Virus record (IMG/VR): IMGVR_UViG_3300025617_000001
Location: 1 to 64,000 of that record
DNA: 64,000 bases
Direction: 5' to 3' (one strand)
DNA from: a virus
Shown: positions 1,450 to 39,037 of the stretch, one piece after another
Position numbering within the stretch: the stretch's first letter is position 1
How the letters are laid out: each line of letters opens with the position of its first letter
Notes under the pieces: model-generated
Databases searched by the model: none
Told to the model about the DNA's origin: nothing
Seen by the model: only the letters and a program-made list of their open reading frames with translations
Made by a program: the position numbers and the translations under genes

Positions 1450-1467
1450 GAATTATATTATATGTTA

Positions 1468-2463: not shown

Positions 2464-2466
2464 AGT

Positions 2467-3168: not shown

Positions 3169-3183
3169 TTATTGCTTTTATTT

Positions 3184-3924
3184 CTATTGATTACCTCCTC
3201 CTGGTCTTTCGCCAAGACCTCCGCCTCCGCCTCCACCGCCTGAACCTGCGGCTTGTGTAATAGTTATAGTATGGGAAAGATTTGCTGTTGAGTAACAGCT
3301 ACCACTAATATAAATACTTAAAGTTAGTGATCTTGAACTAGTAGTACTATTTGTGGCTACATTTAAATACCTAACTGTACTTCCACTAGTAGCTGTAAAA
3401 CTTATGTTTTGATTACCAGTTCCTCCTGTAGTATCAGACGTGCTACTTAATCCAGCCCATGATTGGTTTATTTCCATATATATAATTGCTCCAGTACCTT
3501 TTGGCGTGTAGTTTAAGTCAGCTTCCCACCTTAAACTTTGTCCTGCCGCAGCTACACTAATAGAAGATCCCGAAAAGCAAGCCGTATTATTGTTGAGTTT
3601 CATGCACCCTAATTCTCTATTACCTACATGACCCTTAAATTCTGACATCGCATAAGGAGTAGCTAGATAACCACTACCTTGTTCTAGGTTAGGGTCGTAA
3701 GGCGCGTCAACGGTAAAACCGTTTACAGTCCACTCATTAGTCATAGGTGGACAAAAGTCAAAATCACTACCATTAGCGTCACCTCCACGAGTAAGGTCAT
3801 ACATAGAGATATTAGTAAGGTTTACAGTAGAACCGCTAACATAACCATTAACACCTACATCATTATACCTTCGTTCTTTAGCAACACCACGCATTGATAT
3901 TGCCCCGCTAGTTGGTACTGCCAT
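3184..3924 (-). CDS. Putative tail tip adhesin with polyglycine C-terminus
   Basis: The protein has 246 aa. The start MAVPTSGAISMRGVAKER and the later PYAMSEFKGH segment are hallmarks of a widespread marine-phage structural family that often carries variable adhesive ends. Residues about 120-220 are Ser/Thr-rich beta sequence. The C-terminus (about 228-246) contains a run of eight glycines followed by LGERPGGGNQ, recalling the glycine-rich tips of gp38-type adhesins; that link is an analogy only. The start codon overlaps the last 17 bp of the upstream fibre gene, suggesting translational coupling. Confidence 0.65.
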   Translation of the reverse strand: MAVPTSGAISMRGVAKERRYNDVGVNGYVSGSTVNLTNISMYDLTRGGDANGSDFDFCPPMTNEWTVNGFTVDAPYDPNLEQGSGYLATPYAMSEFKGHVGNRELGCMKLNNNTACFSGSSISVAAAGQSLRWEADLNYTPKGTGAIIYMEINQSWAGLSSTSDTTGGTGNQNISFTATSGSTVRYLNVATNSTTSSRSLTLSIYISGSCYSTANLSHTITITQAAGSGGGGGGGGLGERPGGGNQ

Positions 3925-7138: not shown

Positions 7139-7381
7139 TTACTTACAGTTGTTCTTTCTAGTTCCTTTACCATGGCCTGAACGGTTAGCTTTAACCGATA
7201 CAAACTTTTTCTTTGTATGGTCGTAGTCCTTACCGTTAATATCCTTCCCAGCTTTAATTGCAGCTCTGCGCTTTCTCTGATTCTCGGCCTTCATCTTCCG
7301 ACGCCGTGGAGTCATCGCTGCCGCAATATCTCGCTTACGTTTAGCCAGCAATGCTTTTTTTGATAATTTCTGTTTTGCCAT
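7139..7381 (-). CDS. Small very basic protein
   Basis: The protein has 80 aa, starting MAKQKLSKKALLAKRKRD. An upstream in-frame ATG at 7405 exists, but the one at 7381 matches the MAKQK-type start and the leader 'gcttact'. The protein is about 40 percent Lys/Arg with no Trp, consistent with nucleic-acid binding or a virion DNA-associated role; no family is recognised. It is the first gene of the leftward appendage unit and abuts the start of the 1076-aa fibre gene (stop at 7139-7141, ATG at 7138). It resembles in style the Lys-rich proteins at 56191-56537. Confidence 0.6.
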   Translation of the reverse strand: MAKQKLSKKALLAKRKRDIAAAMTPRRRKMKAENQRKRRAAIKAGKDINGKDYDHTKKKFVSVKANRSGHGKGTRKNNCK

Positions 7382-7420
7382 AAGTAAGCTATTACATATA
7401 AGCATCGTAAATTAAAGGGG

Positions 7421-7463
7421 GCGACAATAGCCTCTACTCTTATATCTTAAGGCTTAATGTCAC
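7421..7463 (+). repeat. Element E1 of a three-copy interrupted palindrome
   Basis: The sequence starts GCGACAATAGCC and ends GGCTTAATGTCAC, 43 bp end to end. It matches E2 (9417-9460) and E3 (16422-16466) at both ends and in spacing. The arms are imperfect inverted repeats, so the element could be an operator for a dimeric protein or a structured RNA. It lies 40 bp upstream of the leftward start at 7381. Confidence 0.7.
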
Positions 7464-7482
7464 ACATTACCCGAATTAGTAT

Positions 7483-7502
7483 GGCTACGCTAAAAGCGAG
7501 CC
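7483..7502 (+). terminator. Hairpin, possible terminator
   Basis: GGCT(A)CGCT, loop AAA, AGCGAGCC forms an 8-bp stem with one bulged A. A run of six T follows about 10 nt later on the plus strand. The spacing is too long for a classic intrinsic terminator, so the role is uncertain. Confidence 0.35.
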
Positions 7503-7516
7503 TAGTGTCATCTTTT

Positions 7517-7540
7517 TTAGGGGTTAGATATTTAGGGGTT
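7517..7540 (+). repeat. Direct repeat TTTAGGGGTT x2
   Basis: Two identical 10-mers at 7517-7526 and 7531-7540 are separated by 4 bp, in the control region upstream of the early promoters. They could be paired protein-binding sites; nothing else supports a function. Confidence 0.4.
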
Positions 7541-7691
7541 GGGTATTATACCTATACTTTACAGTACACAACACGAAAGGGAAAACGCTTTAGAAAACCC
7601 CACGGGCCCCGTAACAGGGCGTAAGCCTAGAAATGTTTTGGCTTTTGCTGCAGACACTATACGGACCTCAACACTATACTATTTTGTACAG

Positions 7692-7713
7692 CGCGCCCCG
7701 CGCGTGTATAGCA
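7692..7713 (+). terminator. GC hairpin followed by TGTATAGCA
   Basis: CGCGC, loop CCC, GCGCG is directly followed by TGTATAGCA. The same tail follows unrelated hairpins at 8710-8725 and 9355-9370. The hairpin lies just upstream of promoter P1. It may end or insulate transcripts, but there is no U-tract. Confidence 0.4.
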
Positions 7714-7717
7714 AAGT

Positions 7718-7750
7718 GCAGACTCTCTACGAGTTGAGTTAGATAATATA
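7718..7750 (+). promoter_or_regulatory. Early promoter motif P1
   Basis: GCAGA, 5 nt, TACGA, 9 nt, GATAATATA. This is the first of 13 copies with identical spacing and one of three in tandem before the gene at 7928. The GATAAT part resembles a -10 box. The TACGA and GCAGA boxes do not fit the sigma-70 -35 position or the Bacteroidota TTTG/TAnnTTTG promoter. Confidence 0.8.
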
Positions 7751-7785
7751 TATGTACTGAGTTACTGACAGAGCCAAGAGCAAAT

Positions 7786-23774: not shown

Positions 23775-24743
23775 ATGGGTTTATTTGATGAGCGCATAGC
23801 GTACAAACCATTTGAGTACCCTGACTATTATACTGAAGGGTGGCTTAAGCAAGCGCAGGCATTTTGGTTACATACCGAAATACCTATGTCAGGTGATGTT
23901 AAAGACTGGAACGAACGTCTTACACCTGCAGAAAAAAACTTGGTCGGAAATATCTTACTTGGATTTGCACAAACTGAGTGTGCGGTTTCTGACTATTGGA
24001 CTCAGAACGTTGTCTCGTGGTTTCCAAAACATGAAATACAACAAATGGCTATGATGTTTGGTTCACAAGAAACAATTCATGCTGTAGCTTACTCTTATTT
24101 AAATGAAACACTTGGACTTGATGATTTCGAAGCTTTTTTACATGATGAAGCAACAATGGCTCGTTTTGACAATTTGGTTGCTTGTGACGATAATGATCGT
24201 ACCGGCATTGGCCGAAGCCTTGCTATCTTTAGTGCTTTTGCAGAGGGCGTTTCCTTATATAGCGCTTTCGCTGTTTTATATAGTTTTCAGCTACGTAATC
24301 TTCTTAAAGGTATTGGACAACAAATGAAATGGAGTGTAAGAGATGAAAGCTTGCACAGTAAAATGGGTTGCCAACTGTTCAGACACATGTGTGAAGAAGA
24401 TGTGAGACTTTTAGAACATTGTCGAGAAGATATTATTTCAGCTGCTGAAGCTATGCACGATGCAGAAATGAATTACATTGACAAGATGTTTGAGATGGGT
24501 GACATTGAAAACTTAAAGTCTTATGATCTTAAACAGTTTATTAAAAAGAGATTAAATGAAAAACTCGGAGAACTTGGGTATGTTGATCTTACTAATCATT
24601 TTGATTTTGACTCAGATGCTGCAAATAATCTTGATTGGTTCTACCACTTAACTGGTGGTGTAACTCATACAGACTTTTTTGCTATTAGACCAACAGACTA
24701 TTCTAAAGCTAATGAAGGTGAGGACTTCGATGATATTTGGTAG
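23775..24743 (+). CDS. nrdB: Ribonucleotide reductase class I beta subunit
   Basis: The protein has 322 aa. Di-iron ligands are placed as in the R2 family: Glu68 (E. coli Asp84 position), Glu99 and His102 in QETIH, Glu157, and Glu191 and His194 in DESLH. The radical tyrosine position is Tyr106, four residues after His102 as in E. coli. Glu instead of Asp as first ligand is seen in several phage and class Ic-like R2 proteins. It generates the radical used by the alpha subunit to make dNTPs. It is transcribed with nrdA, 2 bp apart. Confidence 0.93.
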   Translation: MGLFDERIAYKPFEYPDYYTEGWLKQAQAFWLHTEIPMSGDVKDWNERLTPAEKNLVGNILLGFAQTECAVSDYWTQNVVSWFPKHEIQQMAMMFGSQETIHAVAYSYLNETLGLDDFEAFLHDEATMARFDNLVACDDNDRTGIGRSLAIFSAFAEGVSLYSAFAVLYSFQLRNLLKGIGQQMKWSVRDESLHSKMGCQLFRHMCEEDVRLLEHCREDIISAAEAMHDAEMNYIDKMFEMGDIENLKSYDLKQFIKKRLNEKLGELGYVDLTNHFDFDSDAANNLDWFYHLTGGVTHTDFFAIRPTDYSKANEGEDFDDIW

Positions 24744-24745
24744 TT

Positions 24746-26515
24746 ATGTGGAAAGATGAATGGAAAAAAGGTGTAGACTATCCTACGTGGGGAGACACTG
24801 ATGTCTACAAGAAAACAATTACAGGAGGGTACTTATTACCTTGGGAAACTCCGAAAGATGCGTATATGCGAGTTGCGTCAACTGTTGCTAAGAGGTTGTA
24901 CAAGCCGGAACTAACTGAAGTGTTTTTCGACTATATATGGAAGGGCTGGTTAAACTTAGCATCGCCAGTCCTTTCAAATACAGGTACCGATCGTGGTTTA
25001 CCTATATCATGCTTCGGTATCGATGTAGGTGATAGTATTCACGATATTGGTTCTAAAAACTTAGAAATGATGTTGCTAGCGAAACACGGCGGGGGCGTTG
25101 GCATCGGAATTAACATGATTCGTCCTGCCGGAGCTAAAATTACAAACAATGGAACATCTGACGGCGTGGTTCCGTTTTGCAAGATTTACGATTCAACTAT
25201 ACTTGCCACGAATCAAGGATCTGTCAGACGAGGAGCTGCATCAGTTAATATCAATATTGATCACCCCGATTTCTTGGAGTGGCTTGAGATTAGAGAGCCC
25301 AAGGGTGACGTTAATCGACAGTCGCTTAATCTCCATCAGTGCGCTGTCGTCGGTGATAAGTTTATGCGAAGACTTGAGTCAGGAGATAAAGACGCTAGGA
25401 CGCGATGGTCAAAGCTTCTCCAAAAACGTAAAGCAACTGGAGAACCTTATATTCTTTTTAAGGGAAATACAAACAAGAACAACCCAAGAGCTTACAAAGA
25501 CAACGGACTTAAAGTTCACATGACAAACATCTGTTCTGAGATTACATTACATACTGACGAGAGTCATAGTTTTGTTTGTTGTCTTAGTTCAGTTAATATA
25601 GCTAAGTATGATGAATGGAAAGATACTAACCTCATATACCACAGTACTTGGTTCCTTGATGGCGTTCTTGAGGAGTTTATTCAAAAAGCAAAAGGGCTTA
25701 AAGGTTTTGATAATAGTGTGCGCAGTGCGGAAAAAGGACGGGCACTGGGACTTGGAGTTCTGGGATGGCACACTTATTTACAGCAAAAAGGTATTCCTTT
25801 TGAAGGTATGCAGGCGCAGTTCGAAACCAGAAGAATATTCAGTCAAATTAAGATTGAGTCCGAGAGAGCTTCTAGGGACCTTGCAGAGGTGTATGGTGAA
25901 CCACTATGGTGTAAAGATACCGGATTTAGAAATACACATCTTCGAGCGATTGCACCCACAGTTTCTAATTCTAAACTGTCAGGCAATGTATCACCAGGCA
26001 TTGAACCTTGGGCTGCTAACGTATTTACGGAACAGTCTGCAAAGGGCACTTTTATCCGCAAGAATAAAGAGCTTGAGAAGGTACTTAAGAAATCTGGAAT
26101 TAATAATTCTGAAACATGGAACAAAATCCTAGAGGACAAAGGCTCTATACAAGACATAGAGGAGCTGAATGACTGGGGTTACATACAAGGCAAGTTATGT
26201 AAGCTCAGTGAGTCTGAAGAGGATATTGCCAAATACGGTTTTGATACAGTTAAAGATGTATTTAAAACGTTCAAAGAGATTAATCAACTAGAACTGGTAA
26301 ATCAAGCTGGTATAAGACAGCAATATGTTGATCAGTCAGTATCTTTGAATTTGGCCTTCCCGTCTGTAGCGACGCCTAAATGGATAAACCAGGTTCATTT
26401 GGAAGCATGGAAAAAGGGTATTAAAACCCTCTATTACATGAGAACAGAATCAGTCTTGCGAGGAGACATTGCAACTAAAGCTATGGATCCAGACTGTTTA
26501 TCGTGTGACGGGTAA
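24746..26515 (+). CDS. nrdA: Ribonucleotide reductase class I alpha subunit
   Basis: The protein has 589 aa from the ATG at 24746; an upstream TTG is less likely. Redox Cys89 lies in LPISCFG, the thiyl Cys263 with Asn261 and Glu265 in MTNICSEI, and the partner Cys279 in FVCCLSS. The C-terminal swinging pair is CLSC just before the end. The N-terminal ATP-cone is absent, making it shorter than E. coli NrdA (761 aa) and likely insensitive to dATP inhibition, as in many phage enzymes. It is the last gene of the rightward block, 5 bp before the terminator. Confidence 0.93.
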   Translation: MWKDEWKKGVDYPTWGDTDVYKKTITGGYLLPWETPKDAYMRVASTVAKRLYKPELTEVFFDYIWKGWLNLASPVLSNTGTDRGLPISCFGIDVGDSIHDIGSKNLEMMLLAKHGGGVGIGINMIRPAGAKITNNGTSDGVVPFCKIYDSTILATNQGSVRRGAASVNINIDHPDFLEWLEIREPKGDVNRQSLNLHQCAVVGDKFMRRLESGDKDARTRWSKLLQKRKATGEPYILFKGNTNKNNPRAYKDNGLKVHMTNICSEITLHTDESHSFVCCLSSVNIAKYDEWKDTNLIYHSTWFLDGVLEEFIQKAKGLKGFDNSVRSAEKGRALGLGVLGWHTYLQQKGIPFEGMQAQFETRRIFSQIKIESERASRDLAEVYGEPLWCKDTGFRNTHLRAIAPTVSNSKLSGNVSPGIEPWAANVFTEQSAKGTFIRKNKELEKVLKKSGINNSETWNKILEDKGSIQDIEELNDWGYIQGKLCKLSESEEDIAKYGFDTVKDVFKTFKEINQLELVNQAGIRQQYVDQSVSLNLAFPSVATPKWINQVHLEAWKKGIKTLYYMRTESVLRGDIATKAMDPDCLSCDG

Positions 26516-26519
26516 TAAG

Positions 26520-26547
26520 AAAGGGAGCTTTGCGGCTCCCTTTTTTT
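26520..26547. terminator. Strong intrinsic terminator between convergent blocks
   Basis: AAAGGGAGC, loop TTTGCG, GCTCCCTTT forms a 9-bp stem followed by T on the plus strand (seven T in all at 26541-26547). It ends the nrdA transcript. The complementary A-run makes it at least partly active for the leftward late transcript too. The last gene of the late block stops at 26546, inside it. Confidence 0.9.
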
Positions 26548-26956
26548 ATTTACTAATAATGTTATTTACTACAAAAGCTAAACCAATAGCTGAACCTATT
26601 TTGTAAAGCTTTTTGTTTCTACGTTCTCGTTTCAAAGCTTTTTTAAGTTCGTCTGAAATGCTTATGTAGTTTTCTATTTGAGCATCTTTTTGCTCTATTG
26701 TTTTATTCCTATTGTCTAACTGAGCTTGGATATTATTTATAACATCTTGTAATGTTAAAACTTTATCTTCAAGTATTGTTATTCTCTGTTTAGTTAGTTT
26801 ATGTTCCGATGTTAAGCCATCAAAAGTAACTAAGTCTTTTACAACTAATCTAGCGGTTGTTTCAGTTAGAAGTATTTTTGTATCGTTCTGAGAAAAACTT
26901 TTGAAGCTGACGCTTATTATAACGATCAACAGAATCAAGTTTCTTTTTAGTTTCAT
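26546..26956 (-). CDS. Exported coiled-coil protein, spanin-like
   Basis: The protein has 136 aa from Met at 26956 (MKLKRNLILLIVIISVSFKS). An ATG at 26968 adds four residues. The N-terminus is a flavobacterial-type signal peptide ending SFSQ. Residues about 40-110 form a long coiled coil, and a C-terminal GSAIGLAFVVNNIISK stretch may touch membrane. It overlaps the next spanin-like gene by 95 bp in another frame, like Rz/Rz1 pairs. It is probably part of the outer-membrane disruption step of lysis. Confidence 0.55.
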   Translation of the reverse strand: MKLKRNLILLIVIISVSFKSFSQNDTKILLTETTARLVVKDLVTFDGLTSEHKLTKQRITILEDKVLTLQDVINNIQAQLDNRNKTIEQKDAQIENYISISDELKKALKRERRNKKLYKIGSAIGLAFVVNNIISK

Positions 26957-27200
26957 CTTGTATAACATCTATTTCATTATTTAATTCTTGTATAGTGTTA
27001 TCGTAATCAACTAGCTTTTGATTCAACAGAGCTTCTTCTATTTTTAAACTATCATTAGCCACCTCTAAAGAGTCTATTGCTCCTTGAAGTAAACTAATTT
27101 GATCTTCATACTTCTGTATATCTAGTTTAGGCTTTTCCTTTAACATAAAGAAAATAACCAGCGTTGTAATACAGAGCAATATAACACTTGCTCTATTCAT
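26862..27200 (-). CDS. Membrane-anchored coiled-coil protein, inner spanin-like
   Basis: The protein has 112 aa. An N-terminal transmembrane helix (SVILLCITTLVIFFML) is followed by a periplasmic coiled coil over about 28-90. This is the layout of Rz-type inner spanins. It directly follows the amidase gene (3 bp) and overlaps the secreted coiled-coil gene. The assignment rests on topology and position, since spanins share little sequence. Confidence 0.65.
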   Translation of the reverse strand: MNRASVILLCITTLVIFFMLKEKPKLDIQKYEDQISLLQGAIDSLEVANDSLKIEEALLNQKLVDYDNTIQELNNEIDVIQDETKKKLDSVDRYNKRQLQKFFSERYKNTSN

Positions 27201-27203
27201 TGT

Positions 27204-27695
27204 TTACGATAATAATCCTTTTTTAAACTCAGCCCAATTAAACGCCGAACCTGGATCTGTTTTGCCTTTGCCTTCACCACGTACATGATCACCAGAACAA
27301 TCTGAATGACGCACTACGTTTTCAGCAGGGATATTATATTCTTTCATCCACCACTTGCAAACTTCTATTGCTGTGGCCATTTGTTCTTTGGTATACGTGC
27401 CTTCAGTGTCAATAGCTTTTGAAAACGTTCCGAAGTCATGCTCGCCTGGTACAAGTAGTTCAAATCCCAAGTAGTGAGAGTTAAGATTACTAAGCCCGTT
27501 CCACTCAGACTTACCTGCGTGTAAAGCTTTTCCAGGTGTTTCCACCATTTTTTCATAAGTACCATCAGGGTGAATAAAACCATGTACTGATAAATTTACT
27601 GACTTTAAAAAGTCGTGAGCTTTCATTGGACCTTCTGGCATTTTCAAGTACTCCGCCATTGAGTGTACAATAATTCCTTTTGGTTCGATTGCCAT
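27204..27695 (-). CDS. N-acetylmuramoyl-L-alanine amidase (endolysin, Amidase_2/T7 lysozyme-like)
   Basis: The protein has 163 aa. The fold landmarks of T7 lysozyme-type zinc amidases are present: His11 in IIVHS, VHGFIHPDGT around 37-46, Tyr47, ALHAG at 57-61, and VVRHSDCSG with His130, followed by GKTDPG with Lys145 and Asp147 as third zinc ligand. It cleaves the glycan-peptide bond of peptidoglycan at lysis. There is no signal peptide, so release needs a holin, provided by the gene 2 bp upstream. Confidence 0.88.
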   Translation of the reverse strand: MAIEPKGIIVHSMAEYLKMPEGPMKAHDFLKSVNLSVHGFIHPDGTYEKMVETPGKALHAGKSEWNGLSNLNSHYLGFELLVPGEHDFGTFSKAIDTEGTYTKEQMATAIEVCKWWMKEYNIPAENVVRHSDCSGDHVRGEGKGKTDPGSAFNWAEFKKGLLS

Positions 27696-27697
27696 AA

Positions 27698-27925
27698 TTA
27701 ATCTTTTTTACCGAATACTTTTCCAGCTTCTGCAATACCAAACGCGCCTAAAGTGATAATAACAAATGAGTTATAGATAAACTCTTGTACAACAAGATCT
27801 TTACCTACAAAACCTGTTACAATATCTGCTAACGCAAATACCACCATAATTGCAAATGATGCGAAACCTACGATTGATTTTTCGTTTAAGTCGTTTTCGT
27901 CTTTAAACATGTCTTTAAAAGCCAT
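27698..27925 (-). CDS. Holin-like two-span membrane protein
   Basis: The protein has 75 aa. It has two predicted transmembrane segments (GFASFAIMVVFALADIVTGF and FVIITLGAFGIAEAG), a short loop and a charged C-terminus (KVFGKKD). Its position immediately upstream of the amidase supports a class II holin role. Confidence 0.65.
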   Translation of the reverse strand: MAFKDMFKDENDLNEKSIVGFASFAIMVVFALADIVTGFVGKDLVVQEFIYNSFVIITLGAFGIAEAGKVFGKKD

Positions 27926-27945: not shown

Positions 27946-29247
27946 TTAAAATTGAAACCTACTTCCGATTGTTATAGCCCAGGTCATTGGCAAGTTAGCC
28001 GTGCTTTCAACTATATTAAAACCTAAGTTGGCATAAAAGTTTCTTGTTAAATTGAAACTGTCGCTAGCTCCTAAAACGAACATAGCGTTCTTATTAAATA
28101 AAAAACTATTGTCTACTGTATTAAACATTACCGGGTTAATAGCTACTGCTACCATCGGCGAGATTGTGTGTCGGTTAAAGCTGCAAGGTTTCGTAGCAAA
28201 ACCTATAGCTGTAGGTATAAATGAATAATCTTTACCAGATTTCATAACCATAAAATTCGTTGCCCAACCGACTATTTTATTTTTAGGCAACAAATAAACT
28301 TTACTAGAACCTAAAGCTATATTGAACATACCAAACGAATACATTGCGTTTATTGATGTAGTAGATATGTTTTTAACATTTCCACCTGTAAACACGTTTT
28401 TATTTGGCCTGTACAATACTACTGATTGTTCCTTGTTAGTGTATGATTTACCTAGATTTATATTAAACTGCTGTAAGTTGTCCCATATCATGGCGTTTAA
28501 AGAATAACTTGTAACACCTGATAAACTAGCCTGTGATAAACCTACGTTTGTCACAAAACTTACAGTTCCATCTAAGGCAGACATAGTAGCTACATTTGCA
28601 GCTACAATTACTGGGTTTGTTTTTTGTTTTGATTTGGAGTCTTCTTCTTCAGACTCTTCTCCATCGTCTGAATCTTTTCCATCGTCTTCGCTCTCTCCTT
28701 CTGAGCTGTCCTCTTCGCTGGTCTCTTCTGAGCTACTTTCTTCTGAGCTGGCTTCATCTGTTGAGTCACTGTTCCCCTCTTCACTCGAGCTTGTTTCACT
28801 GCTTGAGTCATTTCCTGAATCGCTTCCTCCGGTTTGATCGGTTGTTGAGTCTGTTGAGCTTGCGCTAGATTCAGTACTACTTGTTTGATTTTGGCTAGTA
28901 CCTCCTTGAGGTGGCGGACTTGTTGAACTAGTCGCTGTAGCCGTGGCATTTTGTGTAGCATTTGATGTTGTTGTTTGTGTTGCTGTTGTTGTTGCTTGAT
29001 TTGTAGAGCATGGAGATATCGTTGCCCACCACGCATAAGTTTCTTCTAACCAAGCTTGTAATTTACCAGATCGTACGTCGTTAATAGTAAACGACTCTGA
29101 TCTATTATAAAAAGCGACAACCGTAGAACCTTCAAACGGTATAACTATAGTTTTTATTTCATTAGTACATCTATCTGTAAATGTCTGCACAAATGCTTGT
29201 GAGTAGATAGACGATGAAAATAATAAAAATAGCCTCAACCATTTCAT
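27946..29247 (-). CDS. Exported outer-membrane beta-barrel protein with long Ser/Thr/Glu/Asp linker
   Basis: The protein has 433 aa. The signal peptide is MKWLRLFLLFSSSIYSQ. A globular part of about 60 residues follows, and then roughly residues 80-215 are a low-complexity tract of Ser/Thr/Gln turning to Ser/Glu/Asp, ending in KSKQKT. Residues about 220-433 are alternating amphipathic strands that end in Phe (IGSRFQF), the BAM-recognition signature of outer-membrane beta-barrels. It would place an acidic, possibly surface-exposed arm on the outer membrane of the infected host. It lies between the lysis genes and the CsgG-like gene. Confidence 0.65.
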   Translation of the reverse strand: MKWLRLFLLFSSSIYSQAFVQTFTDRCTNEIKTIVIPFEGSTVVAFYNRSESFTINDVRSGKLQAWLEETYAWWATISPCSTNQATTTATQTTTSNATQNATATATSSTSPPPQGGTSQNQTSSTESSASSTDSTTDQTGGSDSGNDSSSETSSSEEGNSDSTDEASSEESSSEETSEEDSSEGESEDDGKDSDDGEESEEEDSKSKQKTNPVIVAANVATMSALDGTVSFVTNVGLSQASLSGVTSYSLNAMIWDNLQQFNINLGKSYTNKEQSVVLYRPNKNVFTGGNVKNISTTSINAMYSFGMFNIALGSSKVYLLPKNKIVGWATNFMVMKSGKDYSFIPTAIGFATKPCSFNRHTISPMVAVAINPVMFNTVDNSFLFNKNAMFVLGASDSFNLTRNFYANLGFNIVESTANLPMTWAITIGSRFQF

Positions 29248-29972
29248 TAGTGATCAAATACGCGCTTACGAATCATGCGTTTAACAATCTTCGCAACTGC
29301 AGTTTCTAATGCTTTTTTTGTCGATGTACCTATCGAAGACTGATTAAACTTTACTTCGTCTAAATTAGCATCGTTAAGTAGTGTTAGTTCTCTAATAGTT
29401 GTAGCTTTACCAAGTCCTGAACCTGTCATATAAAGTCCAGTCTCAGCATCTACCATTTTGACTTGCATACCAAGTCTTGTTACTAATGTATTTTTTACGC
29501 CATCTTTAAGATTAAGCGTTTCGTCTTCAGATATAGAAAAATCATAAACTTCTATATAACAAAAATATTTAGCAAGCATAATGTTGCCTACAATATTAAT
29601 CTCGTTAGCAGATAATCCTCGCTGACTAGCTTTATATTGCGCTACCATTCTATCTTTAATCTCATCTTTAGTTTCAACAAACTCAAATCTGAATGTTTCG
29701 TCTAAAAATGCTGTAGTAATATTTGTAAGACCAAGACCAACTCTGTAGTCTCCAAGCTCTGGATATTGATCTAAAACTTCTTGTGATACGCCAATACTTA
29801 AAATAGCCACGGTTACTGGATCCCCGTTGTATTCTGGGATGCTCCAGATTGATTCTCTGGCCTCGAAATCAGCTACGTAATCTTCTGTTACAGTTTTACC
29901 TAAAACCTGTCCATAGAGAGCTCCTATTGAGCCGAAAAATAATAACAGTAATCTACCAATCAAATCCTTCAT
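29247..29972 (-). CDS. CsgG-like outer-membrane pore/secretion protein
   Basis: The protein has 241 aa from ATG 29972 (MKDLIGRLLLLFFGSIGALY, then GQ); the ATG at 30017 gives an N-terminus unlike a signal peptide. Residues about 75-110 (VGLGLTNITTAFLDETFRFE) and AKYFCYIEVYDF, then RLGMQVKMVDAETGLYMTGS with GLGKA, match the curli secretion channel family CsgG. Family members form nonameric outer-membrane pores. Unlike E. coli CsgG, no lipidated Cys follows the signal peptide. It may export a phage product or permeabilise the outer membrane at lysis. Confidence 0.75.
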   Translation of the reverse strand: MKDLIGRLLLLFFGSIGALYGQVLGKTVTEDYVADFEARESIWSIPEYNGDPVTVAILSIGVSQEVLDQYPELGDYRVGLGLTNITTAFLDETFRFEFVETKDEIKDRMVAQYKASQRGLSANEINIVGNIMLAKYFCYIEVYDFSISEDETLNLKDGVKNTLVTRLGMQVKMVDAETGLYMTGSGLGKATTIRELTLLNDANLDEVKFNQSSIGTSTKKALETAVAKIVKRMIRKRVFDH

Positions 29973-30237
29973 CTTTGCGTTTTTGAGTTGCTGTCTTCTC
30001 TTTCTTTGGCTTAACAATAACTGTTTTAACTACAGTGTCTTTCTTTTGCTCAGGCATGTTGATAACAATCTCTTGAGGCTTAGCTGGTTCAGCCGCGACC
30101 TCTTCAGTTTTTTCTTCAAGACCAACCATAACTTTTAGTTCGTCTAAGAAAACAGTTCCAGCAGTAGTTAGCGCAACACCAACTCCTGCTATAATTTTAT
30201 TTTTTAATTGCCCAATAAAGCTTTGATCTTCACTCAT
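29953..30237 (-). CDS. Membrane-associated protein with charged tail
   Basis: The protein has 94 aa. It has a short N-terminus, one likely membrane helix (KIIAGVGVALTTAGTVFL), then a Lys/Glu-rich tail with a Pro-rich and valine-rich stretch (MPEQKKDTVVKTVIVKPKK). It could span the inner membrane with a periplasmic arm, giving a TonB- or spanin-like topology; that is inference. It overlaps the CsgG-like gene by 20 bp and the lipoprotein gene by 8 bp. Confidence 0.55.
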   Translation of the reverse strand: MSEDQSFIGQLKNKIIAGVGVALTTAGTVFLDELKVMVGLEEKTEEVAAEPAKPQEIVINMPEQKKDTVVKTVIVKPKKEKTATQKRKDEGFDW

Positions 30238-30583
30238 TTGTAAAATATTCTTTTCCTATTAATAAATCACCGTCGTACAAAGCAACGGTATATGAACTAG
30301 GAGGCAAAGCGTTTACATAAACATTTAGTATATTATCACCTTTGTCTCCTTTTAAAGTTTCTTGACTAACAATATTATTTGTAAAGTCTAGTATTTTAAC
30401 TCTATATTGATCTGTTCTAGGTAACTTTATATTTACCTGCACTTTGTCTGATACAATATAATTTTCTAGTTTAATACCTGATACCTCTGGTATTTCTAGA
30501 TTTTCAGGAACATAAGTAAAAGTGGTAATATCTTTCTGGCAAGAGAAAAATAGTATCACTAGTAATCCAATAAGTTTCTTCAT
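30230..30583 (-). CDS. Bacteroidota-type lipoprotein
   Basis: The protein has 117 aa. It has a signal peptide with lipobox LFFSCQKD (Cys at residue 15), the most typical lipoprotein start in Flavobacteriia. The mature part looks like a single Ig-like beta domain (NIKLPRTDQYRVKILDFTNN, then SYTVALYDGDLLIGKEYFTN). It is expected to be anchored in the outer membrane. It shares one base with the upstream gene stop, within the export cassette. Confidence 0.7.
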   Translation of the reverse strand: MKKLIGLLVILFFSCQKDITTFTYVPENLEIPEVSGIKLENYIVSDKVQVNIKLPRTDQYRVKILDFTNNIVSQETLKGDKGDNILNVYVNALPPSSYTVALYDGDLLIGKEYFTNE

Positions 30584-32118
30584 TATTTAAGGTTTAGGTT
30601 TATTTTCTGACCTTCTGTCGTAACTGCTTCTTGTCTCTTAAAATATATAAGACCTGCAGCGTTTGTAACCTGTACTTTTGGATTAAATACTATTTTATAT
30701 GATTGACCAGTTTTAACTTGTAGTTGAGCGCTAGGATCAATACTACCGAAGTATACTGCTTTTTCTTTTTTAGTACTATAGTTAGTTATATTATCACCTG
30801 TATTGAAGATAATTTTATCAAACTCTAATTTGGTATCATCATAGTTAACAATAAATTCAAGTGCTGATAAATCAGAACGATCTAAGTTTACAGTGAACTC
30901 TATTTTACCATCAATTAATTCTGTAGTTAAATCTAGATCGTGATTTACTATTTCTTGTTTTGCTAATGAAAACGTGGCAGCAGCAACTTGTTCTTCATAA
31001 TACGAGTGTGAAAAGTCTGTGTCACCAGCTAAGTAATGATATATATTAAATGACTTGTTTGTTTCTGTAGGCTTAAAAGGAACATCCGTAGTACTTATGT
31101 TGTAAGCCAAACTATCAGTAGTTATATAAGTATTGTCTAGTGGTTCCCCAACAACATGCATTAACAAAGCGTAGGAGTCGTCAAAATCAATAACACCGTT
31201 ACCTGTGACGTCAAATAATACTTTTTTAATATCATCTACTTGATTGCTGTTAGAGGCTGTAGGATAGTCTCCATTATTAATAGCTTCCAAGAATAACATG
31301 TATGCATCAGTAATACTAACAACGTCACCTAACCAATCAGTGTTTTGATCGTCTACATAAGCGTATACTTGATACTCTTCGTCATTTTGTAATTCAGTAA
31401 TAACAGCTTCACCATTGATATCAAAACTTCCAGAAGTTATATAAATAGTATCTTGCTGTATGCTATACATGTAATCGCTTTTAGCTTCAGCTTGTGTCTG
31501 TAATTTAAGTACAACGTCACCAGCTCCACCACCTTTAATATCGTTCAAGTTTATAGTATGAGTCATTGCTTGAATACTATTGCTTGTTGATGTAGAGTTA
31601 TCGTTAGATCTAGCCCAACTTAAATTAGATACGTTTGTATAATCAGTATAATTAGTGTTAGCTTTATCTTTTACTAAAAATCTTATAGTTAAAAATGTAT
31701 CTGCATGAGGTATAGCCGCGCTACCTTGTAATGTTATACGTTCTACGGACCAATCGGATGATCCACTGTAGGAACTAGTACCCGTTTGTCCAGCTCCGCC
31801 TGCCCACCAATTAAATTGAGCTGTAAGATCGCTTGTTGATTTGTCTGGATCTGGATTAAACTTATATCCGTCCCAATGGTTTAATGAAGCTTGAGCGTTA
31901 GTGTTAAAAGTATGATCTATTTTTTGTAAAAGCTTGTTGTTGTATTGATAATCAAACTGTAAAAAGTTAAACGTAGTCTGATTGTTATCAATAGTATTAA
32001 ACTTAATAGATAATGTATCACCTACAAGTATAGGCGTGGCATTTGTAAAGCTGTGATCAAGATACATGTCTTGAGCAAAACCTATAAAAGGCAGTAACAT
32101 TAACAATAGTTTTTTCAT
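30583..32118 (-). CDS. Secreted protein with dockerin- and cohesin-like domains
   Basis: The protein has 511 aa. The signal peptide is MKKLLLMLLPFIGFAQ. Residues 20-190 are a beta-rich domain. Residues 262-280 and 303-320 form a dockerin-like pair: WLGDVVSITDAYMLFLEA, and DVTGNGVIDFDDSYALLM with its calcium-binding Asp/Asn loop. Residues about 385-511 resemble a cohesin-type domain (FTVNLDRSDLSALEFIVNYD, then TKLEFDKI). Such modules mediate extracellular protein assembly in bacteria. A secreted scaffold in a phage is unusual; it might be the cargo of the CsgG-like pore or a host surface modifier. Both ideas are inference. Confidence 0.65.
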   Translation of the reverse strand: MKKLLLMLLPFIGFAQDMYLDHSFTNATPILVGDTLSIKFNTIDNNQTTFNFLQFDYQYNNKLLQKIDHTFNTNAQASLNHWDGYKFNPDPDKSTSDLTAQFNWWAGGAGQTGTSSYSGSSDWSVERITLQGSAAIPHADTFLTIRFLVKDKANTNYTDYTNVSNLSWARSNDNSTSTSNSIQAMTHTINLNDIKGGGAGDVVLKLQTQAEAKSDYMYSIQQDTIYITSGSFDINGEAVITELQNDEEYQVYAYVDDQNTDWLGDVVSITDAYMLFLEAINNGDYPTASNSNQVDDIKKVLFDVTGNGVIDFDDSYALLMHVVGEPLDNTYITTDSLAYNISTTDVPFKPTETNKSFNIYHYLAGDTDFSHSYYEEQVAAATFSLAKQEIVNHDLDLTTELIDGKIEFTVNLDRSDLSALEFIVNYDDTKLEFDKIIFNTGDNITNYSTKKEKAVYFGSIDPSAQLQVKTGQSYKIVFNPKVQVTNAAGLIYFKRQEAVTTEGQKINLNLK

Positions 32119-32567
32119 AGTTTTAGTTTACGGATTATTTGTTCACAAAGTTTTTTAAGAGCAACTGATACGCTTTGTTGGTTAAACGTACCTCCATTAT
32201 TTAATACTATTGTAGATGTTATTATATTATCTGCAGTGGCTGATACTTTTTTCTTTTTACCGTTGAAACTAGCCTCTGCAATAATTTCAACTTGATTATT
32301 TGTTTTTGTAGCAAAACCTACAGTTGTAGATTTACGTACTACATCAAAATATAATAAGTCGACCGTTAAGATCGACTCACTGTTTTCGTATAAATCATAT
32401 CCTTGATCTTGAACTAACTCATCTAAAATGTTTTTTACACCAAACGATATATCTCTATTACCTGCGAGATCACCATAAACTATTTTATTCTTAACTTCTG
32501 TGTTTATGGTTTGTGCGCTAACTAAAAAAGTAAATAAAACATTACTTATTACGATTATGAATCTCAT
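32115..32567 (-). CDS. Small exported protein of the CsgG cassette
   Basis: The protein has 150 aa. The signal peptide is MRFIIVISNVLFTFLVSAQ. The mature part (SFGVKNILDELVQDQGYDLY, then SILTVDLLYFDVVRKSTTVG and a C-terminal QQSVSVALKKLCEQII helix) resembles in pattern the small periplasmic YajG/LptE/FlgO type of alpha/beta proteins that assemble at the outer membrane. It overlaps the next gene by 4 bp (ATGA). It could be an accessory factor of the CsgG-like pore. Confidence 0.55.
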   Translation of the reverse strand: MRFIIVISNVLFTFLVSAQTINTEVKNKIVYGDLAGNRDISFGVKNILDELVQDQGYDLYENSESILTVDLLYFDVVRKSTTVGFATKTNNQVEIIAEASFNGKKKKVSATADNIITSTIVLNNGGTFNQQSVSVALKKLCEQIIRKLKL

Positions 32568-32698: not shown

Positions 32699-35600
32699 TT
32701 ACTTGTTTTTCATGTACTTTTTGTACTCGTCTAGAGACATGTTATTCAAATTACTTGTTTTTTTAGATTTTTTAACTTTCTTTTTATCTCTTGACTCAAC
32801 ACCCACGTTCCAAGTATTCCAACCTAGCACTAAAGCTATTTTAGCCCAAGTCTCCGTTTCAGCATCTGAAGCCGCTTTTAAATTTCTAACTTTAGTAAGC
32901 GCTCTATCAAGAGGTACGTTTAATGTAAATGCTGAAGCTGATCCAACAATATCTAAAGCAGGATTATCAATAGTAACACCCATTTCAGCCATGCGATCTT
33001 TGTTGTATCTGTAGTTTTGGATAGAACTGTACATTTGTCTACCTTTAATACCGATAGCAGGAGATATGTTCATGGCTTCAATTAATGTGTAAGCGTGATC
33101 CGCGCGTCCCCTACCTTCTTCTTGTTTAGCTTCTTGTTCAGCAAACTTGAGTATAACGTTTTTAGCGGTAGCAAGAACTCCACCGTAAAGACCGGTACCT
33201 CTAACAACTGTATCAACTACGTTATTAATCAGTCTTAGTTTTTTCTTTTCGTTATCTTCTTTGTTTTCTTCTTCATCATCTTCGAACAACATGCCAAACA
33301 TTGCTTGCTGCATGGCTGAGAATACGATGTTCTGAACTACCATATAATAAGCTATCTTGCTAATATTTGTTTTCATATCACCGCGTCCAGCAGCTAAGTC
33401 TTTTGCAGCCTTAACTATAATTCTAGTGTACTGCATTGGTGTATTCTGGAAGGCAAGGAATACACGACCAATAACATCTGTTTGTTGTTTAGCAAGACGA
33501 TCAGGTCTAGCAGACTGTTGACTTTCTTCAGATATTTCTTGAAAGTCTAAGAAAGCTTGTTGTTCTGCTGCTTGTTGATTCATGCCTTGAGACAGATATG
33601 TATTTATTCTGTTTCTAAGGAATGGCGCGCCACCTGTTGCAATAGCAAAACTATCACCGATCTGTGTAAAACTAAAACCAAGTTGCAGTAATCTGGCGTG
33701 CATACCTTTTACACCACCTTTTTTAAGAGCTTCTGCTAAATCAGCAGCGTTAACGTCTGTTTTAAGACCTCCACGTCTTTCTTTTAAATAATCAGAGTTG
33801 AATATAAACGCCCAATCTTGAGTATACTGTTTTATATTAGCTACCGCAGCCGCGGCTTTAATAGGATTATTGTCGCTCCAATTTATAAAGTTAACTAGAG
33901 ATATTTGCTGTAGTATTGCGGATCTAGTATTAAAGAACATAGTTACAGCCACAGACCCTCTGATCCAGTTTAAAAACTGATTCATTTGCTTGTTAGTACC
34001 TTCAGGTCTTGCCGTGCCGTTTTCCATTCGGTAATGCATATCTTCAAGAGCTGATCTAAAATCAGGACCGTAAGTGGCCTCAATTTTATTCATATTATTT
34101 TCTGAAAAGATCGTGTTTTTATTGTCGATCCACTCTTGTAGCATAGCTTTTCGAGAAACTTTCTCTACAGCTTTCACCATGTCAGACTTTATAGAATCTA
34201 TCTGCCAGTTTTTAGCATCAGGCTCCACCCAAAATTCCTCAATACCTAATATGCTTGATAATTCTTTACCATAAGCTTCTATATCAGGATTATTTTTTAC
34301 AATTTTAACTAGCGCCGACTGAGTATCTTCATTTAAACCGGAAGGGTTAAATCCAGCTTTACCAAAAAGCCAAACTCTTAAAGCTTGCTCAAATGTAAAA
34401 CCACCAAAACCTGTATCTTGTTTTAGTTTTTTAACAACATCAGGGTTAGCTTTATTTATCGCTTTATATCTTTTAGTTACAAGTTGTCTTTTTGCATTTA
34501 GTGCTTGATAAGCTTTAGCAAAAGGTTTTATAAGCTTATTTTCAAAAAACTTATATTGCTCTTCTCCTAGTTTTCCTTTGTCTAAAAATCTATAAATTAA
34601 ACCTACATAATCGTCTGCAGATGGAGCTAATATATCTCTTCTTTTAGCTCTAGTAGCAGCTAAGTTTTTAGCTGTAGCCCTGTCAAGTATTTGACCGGCA
34701 GTATATCTTTTATCTACATTAGCAAGTATAGCTGACATTCTAGACTCGTCGTTAGAAATAGTCTCGTTGTTTTCTATACTATATAGCTTATTAATTTTAT
34801 CTACTTTTACAGCAAAGTCACTAGTCTTTGTTGTTTTGTCAGCTTGTCTAGCTACCCTTAAAGGTATAATTTGAGCTCTAGACTGTACTTGTTCTAATCT
34901 TTGGTCAGAAAGTATAGACGCTGCTCTTTTCACGTTTGTTTGTAATGTAGGATCTAAGTGCTCTAGTCTGTATTTTTTTCTTCTTCCAGATAAAGTTTTA
35001 GTACCATCAACTACAGAATCGTCAACTATTTCTGCTAACGCTTTTAAACCTGTGTTTATATTAGAATCAAAAGCTGCTAACTGTAAAGCGAAAACTATAC
35101 GATCAGTTAACTCTTCTTTTGTTTCAGCAGCATTAATAAAATCGTGTATGTAAGATTCAGTAATACCAAACAATCCTCTTCTTACAGCGTTGTTTTTTCT
35201 ATAGCTTTCTAATATCTTTAATCTTTCTGTTTCAGTCTTAGCTTTGTTTATCTTTCTTGTCATGTCAGAAAGAGGAACGTTATTTATTTGCTTTTTACCA
35301 TGTTTTTCAATAAAAGCATTAACAAGTTCTTGTGTTCTTTCAGAAATATTAGTGTTCGTAGATATATTTCTATTTATTTCACCTGCTTTTTTAATTATGT
35401 TTTCTAACTCTTTTTTATCAATTAAAATATTTCCTTCTTCGTCAATTATACTTTTAACGTTATCAGGATCAATTAAAGTTTCTAGTTTTATACCATAAGC
35501 GTTGGTCCTGTAGCTATATCCCGATAAAGATTTAGTCAAACTACTGTATACTTTAAAAATTGCAGGAAGACCATTTAAGAACTTAAACTGCATTTTTTCT

Positions 35601-38600
35601 AGCTCTTTTATTTTTTCAGCTTCAAATTTCTGAACACCTTTTCCAGTAGATGAAGTTCTATACTTGTCTAGTTTAGAAACAATATCTTCTACGGTAAGAT
35701 CTCTATCCTCAAGAGCTTCTTGTATAACTGGGTTTGTTAAAATAACCGTTAACGCAGATCTAAAGTCTTTTTCATGCTTAGCGTCAACTACAATTTCGTC
35801 TATAGTTGTTGCTATAGAAAACATTTTATCAGACTTACCTGCGGCAATGTTTTGTATGATATTTGGATTAACGCCTTGATCAATTAAATACTTTCTAACT
35901 TCAGCGTTTGTGATAAGCTTACCTAAAAGATTTAGCGTAGCTTTTACGGTTTGAGATTCTGGTGATCTTCCTGAAACTCCAGGTTTAAAATCACCGTTAG
36001 CATCTAAACCAATAGCTTCGTTAAACTCTTCTTTTGTTATGTTATTTAACCTTTTAAATTCCCAAAGACCTTGTGCTTCTGTTCTTCTTACTGTGTCCTT
36101 TTCATAAAAAGCCTTAAGTATATTCTTAGGCATACCTGTAGACGTGCCTATCAATGCTTCTGACGCAGCTTCTGTTATTGCACCTTCTGGTAATATATTT
36201 ATTATTGTAGAAGACTTCTCTGACAATAATTTAGCAGCTGACTTATATTCACCGCTACTAAGATTTTTCTTAGGATCAGTTATTTTTGCAGCGGGCACAC
36301 CAAAAGTGTCACTTAATTGTTCTGCTACCAAGTTAGGAACTTTTTTAAACACAAGTGCTTCAACCTCAATATTTGGTATTTCTTGCTGTATAGCCTCAGT
36401 AGCTCCTTCAACATCATCAAGTATAGATACGGGATCAATAAGACTAAGACCTCTTTGCATTTCAATCTCCATCTCATCCATCGCATCGATATCAAACTCT
36501 TCGGTGATAGCTTCTTCAGGCGCTTGTCTTACTTCGTCAATGTCAGTAGCAATACCCTCTTCTACACTAGCAATACCTAATCTACTAGCTAAGTTATTTG
36601 CTCTAAGATTAAGCCTGTTATTAACGAATTTAGTTAAAGATTGCTTGTCAGCATCATACTCGTTTTGAACCATAGCCGCGGCTTCTGATATCAAAGCGTC
36701 TTTATAATCAGATCTGCTAACTAACAATTTGTTATCAGCAGGTATAGGATCATAAAGTCTTTTAGTGATACTTTCAACAGTGCCACCAATCATATTACCA
36801 AACTTAGTATTTTGTAGATTAAAGTCCATCAAAGGTTGGTCTTTAATATCTACAGCTAGAGTTCTATTTACAAAGTCTCTAGGGTTTTTATATTTAGCAA
36901 ATTCAGTGTTTATGTCTATAGACGCAAATGTACCTTGTATACCTGCTCCAGTAGCGGCTAGCTTCTGTGCTCTTTTGCTGAGTTTACCGTCTGTGTCAAA
37001 TTCTTTTCTGTAGCTTTTTAAAAACTCAAAAACATCTTTACCAGATTTAAATTCTGCTTTTTCAAAACCAAACGTAGCAAATACTTTTTCAAGCATGCGT
37101 TTGATTTTATCCATTACTGTATCTGTAGCTTTTATTTGACCTTTAGCCATAGCATCACTAGTTAAAGTAATTATTTCTTCTAACTGCGCAGGATTACCAT
37201 CGTATGCTTCTAGTCTTTTTTGTATATTTTCAAATCCATCTAGTCCTTCAACTATAGACTTGAATTCATTTACAATTTGCTCTGATTTAGTTGGATCAAT
37301 AAATGTAGATCTTAATATATTGTGTAACAATTCGTGAGAACCGACATTGTATTGTTTTGTTTTAGCAGCACCTTCTAAGTTTATTACTAAAGTACCATCA
37401 TCTTTTCTGAAACCACCTACTTCGCCTTGCTCTTGTTTAGCGTCAGGATATTGAGAATAAAACTCTTCCGATGTTTCTATTGTTTCTACATTAGCGTAGT
37501 TTTTAGCAATGTCAACTTCGCTAAGAACAGCTGTTTTAGCTTCTGTTAATTGTTTTTCTGCAGATACTTCTTCTTCGGTTACTTTGTATTTAGAATATAG
37601 CTCACCGAGTCTTTCGTCTATTTCAGCTATTCTTTTTTTACCTATAAACGTTTTATTGTCTAGTTTAGATTTTTCATTTTCTAGCTCAACGAACTCGTTA
37701 GCGTCGGTTTCATCTTGTATAAAGTTTTCTATAGCTTTTTTAGATCTAGCTTTTGTTATTTTATCTTGACCTTTTTCGTAAAGAACTTTATCGTCTTTTA
37801 TTTTTATCCTAGCAGTAGCAATATTTTCGCCATTGTCAGAGTCAATAAACTCTTCCATTTGCTGCTTAGTAATTTCTTCGCCATTTAATATATATCTAGG
37901 TTTTGTAGTTGCTGCTTTAACAAACGCTAAAGGAGCACCAGTCATACCACCTACAGCTTCTAAACCAATTTCCGCAGCATCCATCTCTTGACCAGCTACT
38001 GCTCTACCAGCCGCTTCACCGACACCACCAACAGCGCCTTCAACTGCAAACGCTGTTGCTGTTTCAGCTATATTAGTAAGTTTAGCACCTGCTTTTACTG
38101 TTTTAGCTCCAGCGGTTACAGCTTTTATTGCGCCACCAGTTACCGCAGTACCTAAACCTTCAATAACACCTATAGTAGCACCTCTACCAATAGACCTGTT
38201 TTTTATGGATCTAAATTTTTCTTCGTCTTCTAGTAAAGCTTTTACAGTTTCTTTATCAAAGTCTTTACCTTCTTTTTGAAGTTCTTCTTGTAATAATTCT
38301 GCAAACGTTAAACCAGATTCCATAGCTCCAGAAACACCACCTACTAGACCGGCTATACCACCAGGAACAGCACCAACACCACCAGCAGCAGCAGTAGCAG
38401 CACCACCAGCAGTAGCTCCAGTTACTAAACCTGCTAAACCAGCTTGAGCAACCTCATCTGCATTTAAAAAAGAACCTGCCATAGTGGCCATACTAGAAGC
38501 CATTACTTGAGGCACTACTTGGAAACGTGTTTTAACCATGCCTTTTAAAAAGCCAAAAACACCTCCACCCTCTTCGTCGTATATCTTTTGAAACTCCATC

Positions 38601-39037
38601 ATTTCATCAGACATAGCAGCTTCTTGAGAATACCGGTTTGCGTCTATAAATTCTTGAATTTCTTCGTAACTAGCAGAAGAGCCTTTAGCCATTATATTTA
38701 GATCTTCATCTATTGATGTAGATTGTCTATAACCAGACTTAAAAGCTCTGTAAAAATCACCAAAGTAATCTGTTACAAAGTTTTTACCAAATGTTCTTTC
38801 AACTAGAGTATCTTGTTCTTGTGAATCCGAAGAACCAGTCTCCAAGTTGAAGTCCATATCGGGTGCTGCAGTTTCTTCCACAGGCGCACCCGTTACCTGT
38901 GGTTGTTGCTTTTCCACGTTTTCTACTTGCTTCATTTCTGGATTTTTAGCAAGTAGTTCATCTACAGTAATACCATTACTTGAAGCTAATTGTTCAAGCT
39001 CTTCTGGACTGAATTGTTGACCGTTTAATTCGTACAT
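32699..39037 (-). CDS. Giant internal virion protein with HELLH zinc-protease motif
   Basis: The protein has 2112 aa. The N-terminus MYELNGQQFSPEELEQLASS is typical of phage internal/ejected proteins. Residues about 175-375 are Gly/Ala-rich and hydrophobic, as expected for a protein that crosses or lines the cell envelope during ejection. HELLH at 568-572 (GSHELLHNIL) is a zincin metallopeptidase motif. Much of the rest is helical and charged. The C-terminus ends in basic KKKVKKSKKTSN. It probably forms the ejection channel core like T7 gp15/gp16, with protease activity instead of a transglycosylase motif. Confidence 0.75.
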   Translation of the reverse strand: MYELNGQQFSPEELEQLASSNGITVDELLAKNPEMKQVENVEKQQPQVTGAPVEETAAPDMDFNLETGSSDSQEQDTLVERTFGKNFVTDYFGDFYRAFKSGYRQSTSIDEDLNIMAKGSSASYEEIQEFIDANRYSQEAAMSDEMMEFQKIYDEEGGGVFGFLKGMVKTRFQVVPQVMASSMATMAGSFLNADEVAQAGLAGLVTGATAGGAATAAAGGVGAVPGGIAGLVGGVSGAMESGLTFAELLQEELQKEGKDFDKETVKALLEDEEKFRSIKNRSIGRGATIGVIEGLGTAVTGGAIKAVTAGAKTVKAGAKLTNIAETATAFAVEGAVGGVGEAAGRAVAGQEMDAAEIGLEAVGGMTGAPLAFVKAATTKPRYILNGEEITKQQMEEFIDSDNGENIATARIKIKDDKVLYEKGQDKITKARSKKAIENFIQDETDANEFVELENEKSKLDNKTFIGKKRIAEIDERLGELYSKYKVTEEEVSAEKQLTEAKTAVLSEVDIAKNYANVETIETSEEFYSQYPDAKQEQGEVGGFRKDDGTLVINLEGAAKTKQYNVGSHELLHNILRSTFIDPTKSEQIVNEFKSIVEGLDGFENIQKRLEAYDGNPAQLEEIITLTSDAMAKGQIKATDTVMDKIKRMLEKVFATFGFEKAEFKSGKDVFEFLKSYRKEFDTDGKLSKRAQKLAATGAGIQGTFASIDINTEFAKYKNPRDFVNRTLAVDIKDQPLMDFNLQNTKFGNMIGGTVESITKRLYDPIPADNKLLVSRSDYKDALISEAAAMVQNEYDADKQSLTKFVNNRLNLRANNLASRLGIASVEEGIATDIDEVRQAPEEAITEEFDIDAMDEMEIEMQRGLSLIDPVSILDDVEGATEAIQQEIPNIEVEALVFKKVPNLVAEQLSDTFGVPAAKITDPKKNLSSGEYKSAAKLLSEKSSTIINILPEGAITEAASEALIGTSTGMPKNILKAFYEKDTVRRTEAQGLWEFKRLNNITKEEFNEAIGLDANGDFKPGVSGRSPESQTVKATLNLLGKLITNAEVRKYLIDQGVNPNIIQNIAAGKSDKMFSIATTIDEIVVDAKHEKDFRSALTVILTNPVIQEALEDRDLTVEDIVSKLDKYRTSSTGKGVQKFEAEKIKELEKMQFKFLNGLPAIFKVYSSLTKSLSGYSYRTNAYGIKLETLIDPDNVKSIIDEEGNILIDKKELENIIKKAGEINRNISTNTNISERTQELVNAFIEKHGKKQINNVPLSDMTRKINKAKTETERLKILESYRKNNAVRRGLFGITESYIHDFINAAETKEELTDRIVFALQLAAFDSNINTGLKALAEIVDDSVVDGTKTLSGRRKKYRLEHLDPTLQTNVKRAASILSDQRLEQVQSRAQIIPLRVARQADKTTKTSDFAVKVDKINKLYSIENNETISNDESRMSAILANVDKRYTAGQILDRATAKNLAATRAKRRDILAPSADDYVGLIYRFLDKGKLGEEQYKFFENKLIKPFAKAYQALNAKRQLVTKRYKAINKANPDVVKKLKQDTGFGGFTFEQALRVWLFGKAGFNPSGLNEDTQSALVKIVKNNPDIEAYGKELSSILGIEEFWVEPDAKNWQIDSIKSDMVKAVEKVSRKAMLQEWIDNKNTIFSENNMNKIEATYGPDFRSALEDMHYRMENGTARPEGTNKQMNQFLNWIRGSVAVTMFFNTRSAILQQISLVNFINWSDNNPIKAAAAVANIKQYTQDWAFIFNSDYLKERRGGLKTDVNAADLAEALKKGGVKGMHARLLQLGFSFTQIGDSFAIATGGAPFLRNRINTYLSQGMNQQAAEQQAFLDFQEISEESQQSARPDRLAKQQTDVIGRVFLAFQNTPMQYTRIIVKAAKDLAAGRGDMKTNISKIAYYMVVQNIVFSAMQQAMFGMLFEDDEEENKEDNEKKKLRLINNVVDTVVRGTGLYGGVLATAKNVILKFAEQEAKQEEGRGRADHAYTLIEAMNISPAIGIKGRQMYSSIQNYRYNKDRMAEMGVTIDNPALDIVGSASAFTLNVPLDRALTKVRNLKAASDAETETWAKIALVLGWNTWNVGVESRDKKKVKKSKKTSNLNNMSLDEYKKYMKNK

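Follow-up and report, generated by a model that had tools for sequence, protein, structure and literature searches.

Pelagiphages carry curli-type gene clusters that encode CsgG, CsgF and curlin repeats and that have moved between podoviruses and myoviruses (PMC7029224, PMC9004378, PMC9599517). Here we describe a six-gene cassette in a phage genome that resembles these type VIII clusters (HTVC008M, Melnitz and HTVC023P-type) in being a CsgG-centred phage module that the host lacks and that has been transferred between podovirus and myovirus backbones. However, the pelagiphage clusters are of alphaproteobacterial origin and, besides CsgG, encode CsgF, curlin repeats, FecR and adenylate cyclase. 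In the cassette, a distantly related protein of CsgG/PelC type is joined by a separate barrel of 12 strands, a paralogue of ORF150 type, a cohesin-like cargo protein and a surface lipoprotein. The cassette thus differs from the pelagiphage clusters in every part except the distant CsgG relationship. Pfam searches detected no curlin repeats among the cassette proteins, and hhalign gave no match between the ORF150 or ORF433 families and Escherichia coli CsgE or CsgF. A tblastn search with E. coli CsgG did not find csgG in two regions (60–147 kb) of HTVC008M. In the open-access literature, we found no published description of the cassette. Gene content, conservation, homologies, export signals and folds were computed, and together they lead us to propose, with a probability of about 0.5, that the cassette is a late accessory module that uses an outer-membrane complex to present adhesive phage proteins at the surface of infected flavobacterial cells.

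The stretch of DNA analysed here (the window) covers 64,000 nt of a virus record of 66,248 bases. The six cassette genes, all on the minus strand, span positions 32567 to 27946 and overlap or are nearly gap-free (Table 1). They lie downstream of a 2112-aa giant internal virion protein, which ends the virion module, and upstream of the holin, amidase and Rz-like pair, confirming the six adjacent genes between internal virion genes and holin, amidase and spanins that an earlier, sequence-only reading had described. Its count of five signal sequences also held, as signal peptides are present on five of the six products, including that of ORF117 with its lipobox FFSC followed by QKD, and ORF94 has instead a single N-terminal hydrophobic segment. 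The putative 75-aa holin has no family match in Pfam or PHROGs. The 2112-aa protein (window 32699–39037, minus strand) carries an HELLH motif, as is typical for zinc metallopeptidases, and has a PHROG match for its N-terminal part only. Elsewhere in the window, nrdB and nrdA (ribonucleotide reductase; 23775–26515, plus strand) lie tail to tail with the lysis genes, an arrangement that recurs in several cassette-bearing podovirus-type contigs, and a phage-encoded GroEL chaperonin (PHROG 5725, E = 4e-138) is encoded at 57471–59039 on the minus strand.

Table 1 Genes of the cassette and of the adjoining lysis region, in window coordinates
Feature	Position	Strand	Description
ORF150	32115..32567	-	exported periplasmic protein, Lipoprotein_16 (YajG)-like
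ORF511	30583..32118	-	exported, cohesin-like, one dockerin-like loop (DVTGNGVIDFDD); proposed cargo
ORF117	30230..30583	-	lipoprotein; surface-export motif C-QKD and T9SS-C-terminal-sorting-like domain
ORF94	29953..30237	-	inner-membrane-anchored; periplasmic tail ends Asp-Trp
CsgG-like protein	29247..29972	-	exported predicted ring protein, CsgG/PelC superfamily; not lipidated in phage
ORF433	27946..29247	-	predicted 12-stranded outer-membrane barrel; N-terminal periplasmic domain (2 Cys); disordered Ser/Asp/Glu-rich linker
Putative holin	27698..27925	-	75-aa membrane protein; adjoins cassette in many contigs
Endolysin, N-acetylmuramoyl-L-alanine amidase	27204..27695	-	Pfam Amidase_2, E = 3e-19
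Rz-like inner-membrane spanin candidate	26862..27200	-	PHROG Rz-like spanin, E = 1e-3
Exported coiled-coil protein, partner of Rz-like gene	26546..26968	-	ORF and signal sequence

The CsgG-like protein of the window has no CsgG match in Pfam, PHROGs or PDB sequences. Its bacterial relatives in KSB1 and Fibrobacterota exceed the Pfam CsgG cut-off, and the phage family aligns with these relatives in hhalign at 100% (E = 9e-39). Furthermore, the AlphaFold model (pLDDT 72) finds CsgG (E = 4e-7) and PelC (E = 9e-7) as its top PDB matches, with modest TM-scores. Bacterial bridge sequences and the predicted fold thus assign the phage protein to the CsgG/PelC superfamily; of the CsgG-like pore proposed earlier, the CsgG/PelC-type relationship is supported by these two routes. 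Although the fold is common to the outer-membrane rings of CsgG (curli) and PelC (Pel polysaccharide), the phage proteins differ from both in that they are not lipidated, have uncertain membrane hairpins and come together with a dedicated barrel and another CsgG-type protein. The cysteine that the bacterial relatives have at the signal-peptide cleavage site is absent from the phage proteins, and the two hairpins are 4 and 8 residues shorter than those of E. coli CsgG by hand count, with charged residues in the first. Because the hairpins are short and charged and the lipidated cysteine is missing, the protein may be a ring in the periplasm instead of a pore, and we consider the two equally likely.

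ORF433 was modelled by AlphaFold as a 12-stranded barrel (pLDDT ~85) with a linker (residues 108–206) below 50, in agreement with the β-barrel outer-membrane protein of the earlier reading. The best PDB match of the model is FapF (E = 1.7e-7), with porins, autotransporters and other barrels close behind. Pseudomonas FapF (PMC5557850) likewise comprises a 12-stranded barrel, an N-terminal periplasmic domain and a disordered linker, a likeness of architecture only; the linker of ORF433 differs in being strongly acidic, and other barrels score nearly as high. Neither FapB/C/E-type cargo nor the FapD C39 peptidase was matched among the cassette proteins in Pfam or PHROGs. Comparison with phage barrels in BFVD returned generic matches only, and the ORF433 relatives end in F or L, with one Y. 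Structure prediction, suggested earlier as a check, thus gave a CsgG/PelC-type fold for the CsgG-like protein, an outer-membrane barrel for ORF433 and a virion tail fold for neither. The match of the barrel to porins also fits a pore through which the infected cell takes up nutrients, as proposed for a pelagimyophage CsgG (PMC7029224), but such a pore would leave the conserved cargo pair and its adhesin domains unaccounted for, and we regard it as very improbable.

ORF150 matches Pfam Lipoprotein_16 with 27.0 bits against a cut-off of 25, and at E ≤ 1 the family is also hit by 13 of 16 relatives. Its profile aligns with the second CsgG-type protein of bacterial operons at 94% probability (E = 1e-7). 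What had been described as a small exported protein is therefore exported and, more precisely, a Lipoprotein_16 match and the counterpart of this bacterial protein. Neither ORF150 nor ORF511 has a match in the phage collection. In five bacterial loci from Fibrobacterota and KSB1, a CsgG lipoprotein is followed by a barrel and then by the second CsgG-type protein; a sixth bacterial contig ends inside CsgG. This cellular operon occurs in a small number of genomes from Fibrobacterota and KSB1 (loci L073–L076 and L048). Its CsgG-like, barrel and ORF150-like proteins are homologous to those of the cassette, the barrel less clearly so, with 64% at best for the N-terminal domain of ORF433, a value no more than suggestive of homology, and 44% for the barrel part. 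By contrast, its CsgG is a lipoprotein, and the surrounding genes include neither cohesin cargo nor a lipoprotein partner nor ORF94. The ORF150 homologue follows the barrel, as in bacteria, in Flavobacterium phage immuto and in locus L047, in the latter with two genes between.

Because the bacterial operons consist only of CsgG, the barrel and the ORF150-like gene, this trio resembles an outer-membrane machine of bacterial cells. In the cassette, ORF150, the CsgG-like protein and ORF433 look like a three-gene machine with bacterial relatives, ORF511 and ORF117 like a cargo pair and ORF94 like an inner-membrane protein. The 'complete cassette' of the sequence-only reading is a real unit, and it needs to be divided into these three components. 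A more specific proposal, which we put forward tentatively as possible rather than probable, is that ORF150, the ring and the barrel form a previously undescribed three-part export machine, common to flavophages and to Fibrobacterota and KSB1, that in the phages displays modular cohesin and lectin adhesins on the infected cell.

ORF511 matches the Pfam Cohesin family at E = 1.4e-4, with 22.6 bits, just below the cut-off of 24.1, and 8 of 11 relatives match this family, the best (5e-9) above the cut-off. ORF511 has one clear dockerin-like loop and no Pfam dockerin match, and such a loop is present in 15 of 41 relatives, compared with 1.4 expected after shuffling. It had been described as a secreted, dockerin/cohesin-like protein; secretion and the cohesin-like character, with relatives above the cut-off, are supported, whereas the cohesin match in the window itself is sub-threshold and the dockerin part comes down to a single motif. 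The surface-lipoprotein export signal of Bacteroidetes consists of a lipobox followed by, for example, QKDDE at positions +2 to +6 (PMC5080379). ORF117 carries a motif of this type (C-QKDIT in the window), and of 32 distinct lipoproteins of its family 94% have an acidic residue at +4 and 69% have one at +5. A Por_Secre_tail domain is matched by 10 of 18 ORF117 relatives at E ≤ 1 (best 1.3e-7), with the window ORF117 below the cut-off.

Phage-encoded T9SS cargo has been reported in Cryophage (PMC7468147). Similarly, the cargo relatives in immuto and L047 are cohesin proteins fused to a T9SS type A sorting domain above the cut-off (TIGR04183; 9e-12 in immuto gp015 and 2e-7 in L047). In the window, by contrast, ORF511 has no T9SS signal of its own and the sorting-like domain is split off onto the lipoprotein ORF117, below the cut-off. 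The host T9SS could export such cargo without the cassette machine. The ORF511–ORF117 pair is duplicated as a unit in contigs L020 and L041, and duplicated or related cargo includes a C-type lectin (3e-15) and PA14/GLEYA domains (3e-11 and 4e-7). As the pair duplicates together, its relatives carry adhesin and sorting domains and ORF117 has a surface-export motif, we infer from their sequences that ORF511 and ORF117 look like cargo. ORF94 has no family match in Pfam or PHROGs, and 33 of 34 relatives end in DW. Charge matching between the ORF94 tail and the acidic linker of ORF433, examined as a possible sign of contact, was rejected (Spearman −0.07).

A scan of viral contigs for the CsgG-like protein yielded 43 loci, of which 34 had enough flanking sequence for synteny to be judged. 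Gene order and strand are identical in all 34, which excludes a chance arrangement and answers the synteny check in related marine phage contigs that the sequence-only reading had called for. All six genes were detected in 28 of the 34; in the other six the ORF picker had selected an ORF on the opposite strand where ORF94 would lie, and tblastn recovers ORF94 in three of these. Other versions also exist. In the rearranged cassette of the isolate immuto, genes for lectin, cohesin, transmembrane, CsgG-like, barrel and ORF150-like proteins adjoin ribonucleotide reductase genes, ~8 kb away from the endolysin, and two more phage-like contigs, from a Flavobacterium MAG and a Bacteroidetes MAG, have versions near endolysins that look GH19-type from sequence. 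Additional genes occur in or near some cassettes. In L023, ORF94 is separated from the CsgG-like gene by a gene for a DNA/RNA non-specific endonuclease (7162–7770, plus strand; Endonuclease_NS, E = 1e-19), and L020 has a similar gene. In the phage contig L037, an apparent TonB-dependent receptor of 825 aa and an apparent 256-aa nuclease of S1/P1 type, both recognized from sequence only, are encoded upstream of the cassette (607–3896, plus strand).

In a tree of the CsgG-like protein, the podovirus-type neighbourhood, assigned from flanking genes alone, changes at least three times on well-supported branches, and the window sequence clusters with immuto-like contigs and not with all podovirus contigs. 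The cassette has thus, as far as the tree indicates, moved between phage backbones. Recent uptake from the host was rejected as a source, as the CsgG-like protein is found in no other of 397 Flavobacteriaceae genomes and, for the phylum of the genome containing L047, in no other of 395 genomes. The portal-protein relatives elemo, Panino and a Manatee Spring podovirus have no cassette past the giant virion protein and no CsgG-like gene. The absence of the cassette from these cultured or sequenced podovirus relatives, together with the transfer between backbones, indicates that it is accessory and not an essential part of the virion. The position directly after the giant internal virion protein would fit packaged proteins that form a channel for DNA ejection during entry. 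However, export signals on five of the six proteins, predicted folds of outer-membrane or periplasmic type and the lack of a cassette in cultured relatives whose portal and virion modules are homologous make a virion component highly unlikely. The earlier view of a phage-encoded secretion or outer-membrane device, rather than a set of tail proteins, is accordingly supported by two predicted folds and by synteny.

In most contigs, lysis genes come after or interrupt the cassette, and the lysins beside it are exchangeable (Amidase_2, Peptidase_M15 or GH19). This linkage raises the alternative of a lysis device in which large pores made by the CsgG-like ring and by ORF433 would act together with the holin, amidase and Rz-like proteins to permeabilize the outer membrane, and a gated-secretin or pinholin role has been proposed for the CsgG of phage Melnitz (PMC9004378). 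Such a lysis device would leave the cohesin, lectin, PA14 and T9SS-sorting cargo and the surface lipoprotein unexplained, the phage already has an Rz-like pair, the immuto cassette lies at a distance from its endolysin, and the bacterial three-gene machine is without lysis genes. We consider a lysis device unlikely, and opening of the outer membrane at lysis, one of the options raised by the sequence-only reading, fares less well than its suggestion that the proteins decorate the dying host surface, which best fits the adhesin and sorting domains of the cargo.

Late surface display of phage adhesins is the reading favoured by the combination of adhesin-type cargo, signals for surface sorting and an outer-membrane machine. 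In the mechanism that we infer, the CsgG-like ring, ORF433 and ORF150 would form an outer-membrane export or anchoring complex that carries or holds ORF511 with its partner surface lipoprotein ORF117, and ORF94 would link this complex to the inner membrane. The pay-off for the phage may be adhesion near the time of lysis, which would keep neighbouring cells or progeny close, or mask the host envelope. A reasonable variant of surface display is receptor shielding or superinfection exclusion, in which covered host receptors would keep rival phages out and progeny free of debris. The surface-lipoprotein signal of ORF117, glycan-binding-type domains in cargo relatives and the late position beside the lysis genes are consistent with this variant, and phage T5 provides a familiar precedent in Llp, a lipoprotein that shields its receptor. 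Nevertheless, shielding would require neither so large an export machine nor modular adhesin domains, and no receptor link is known, so that we hold this variant to be distinctly unlikely.

To the phage-encoded curli-type clusters of pelagiphages, the cassette adds an independent module of different construction, which has recognizable adhesin and surface-sorting domains and belongs to phages that infect another bacterial phylum. It also leads to an uncharacterized outer-membrane operon in Fibrobacterota and KSB1, and Flavobacterium phage immuto with its host LMO8 offers one cultured system that carries a version of the cassette. Collectively, our findings suggest that the display of adhesive proteins on infected cells recurs as a strategy among marine phages.
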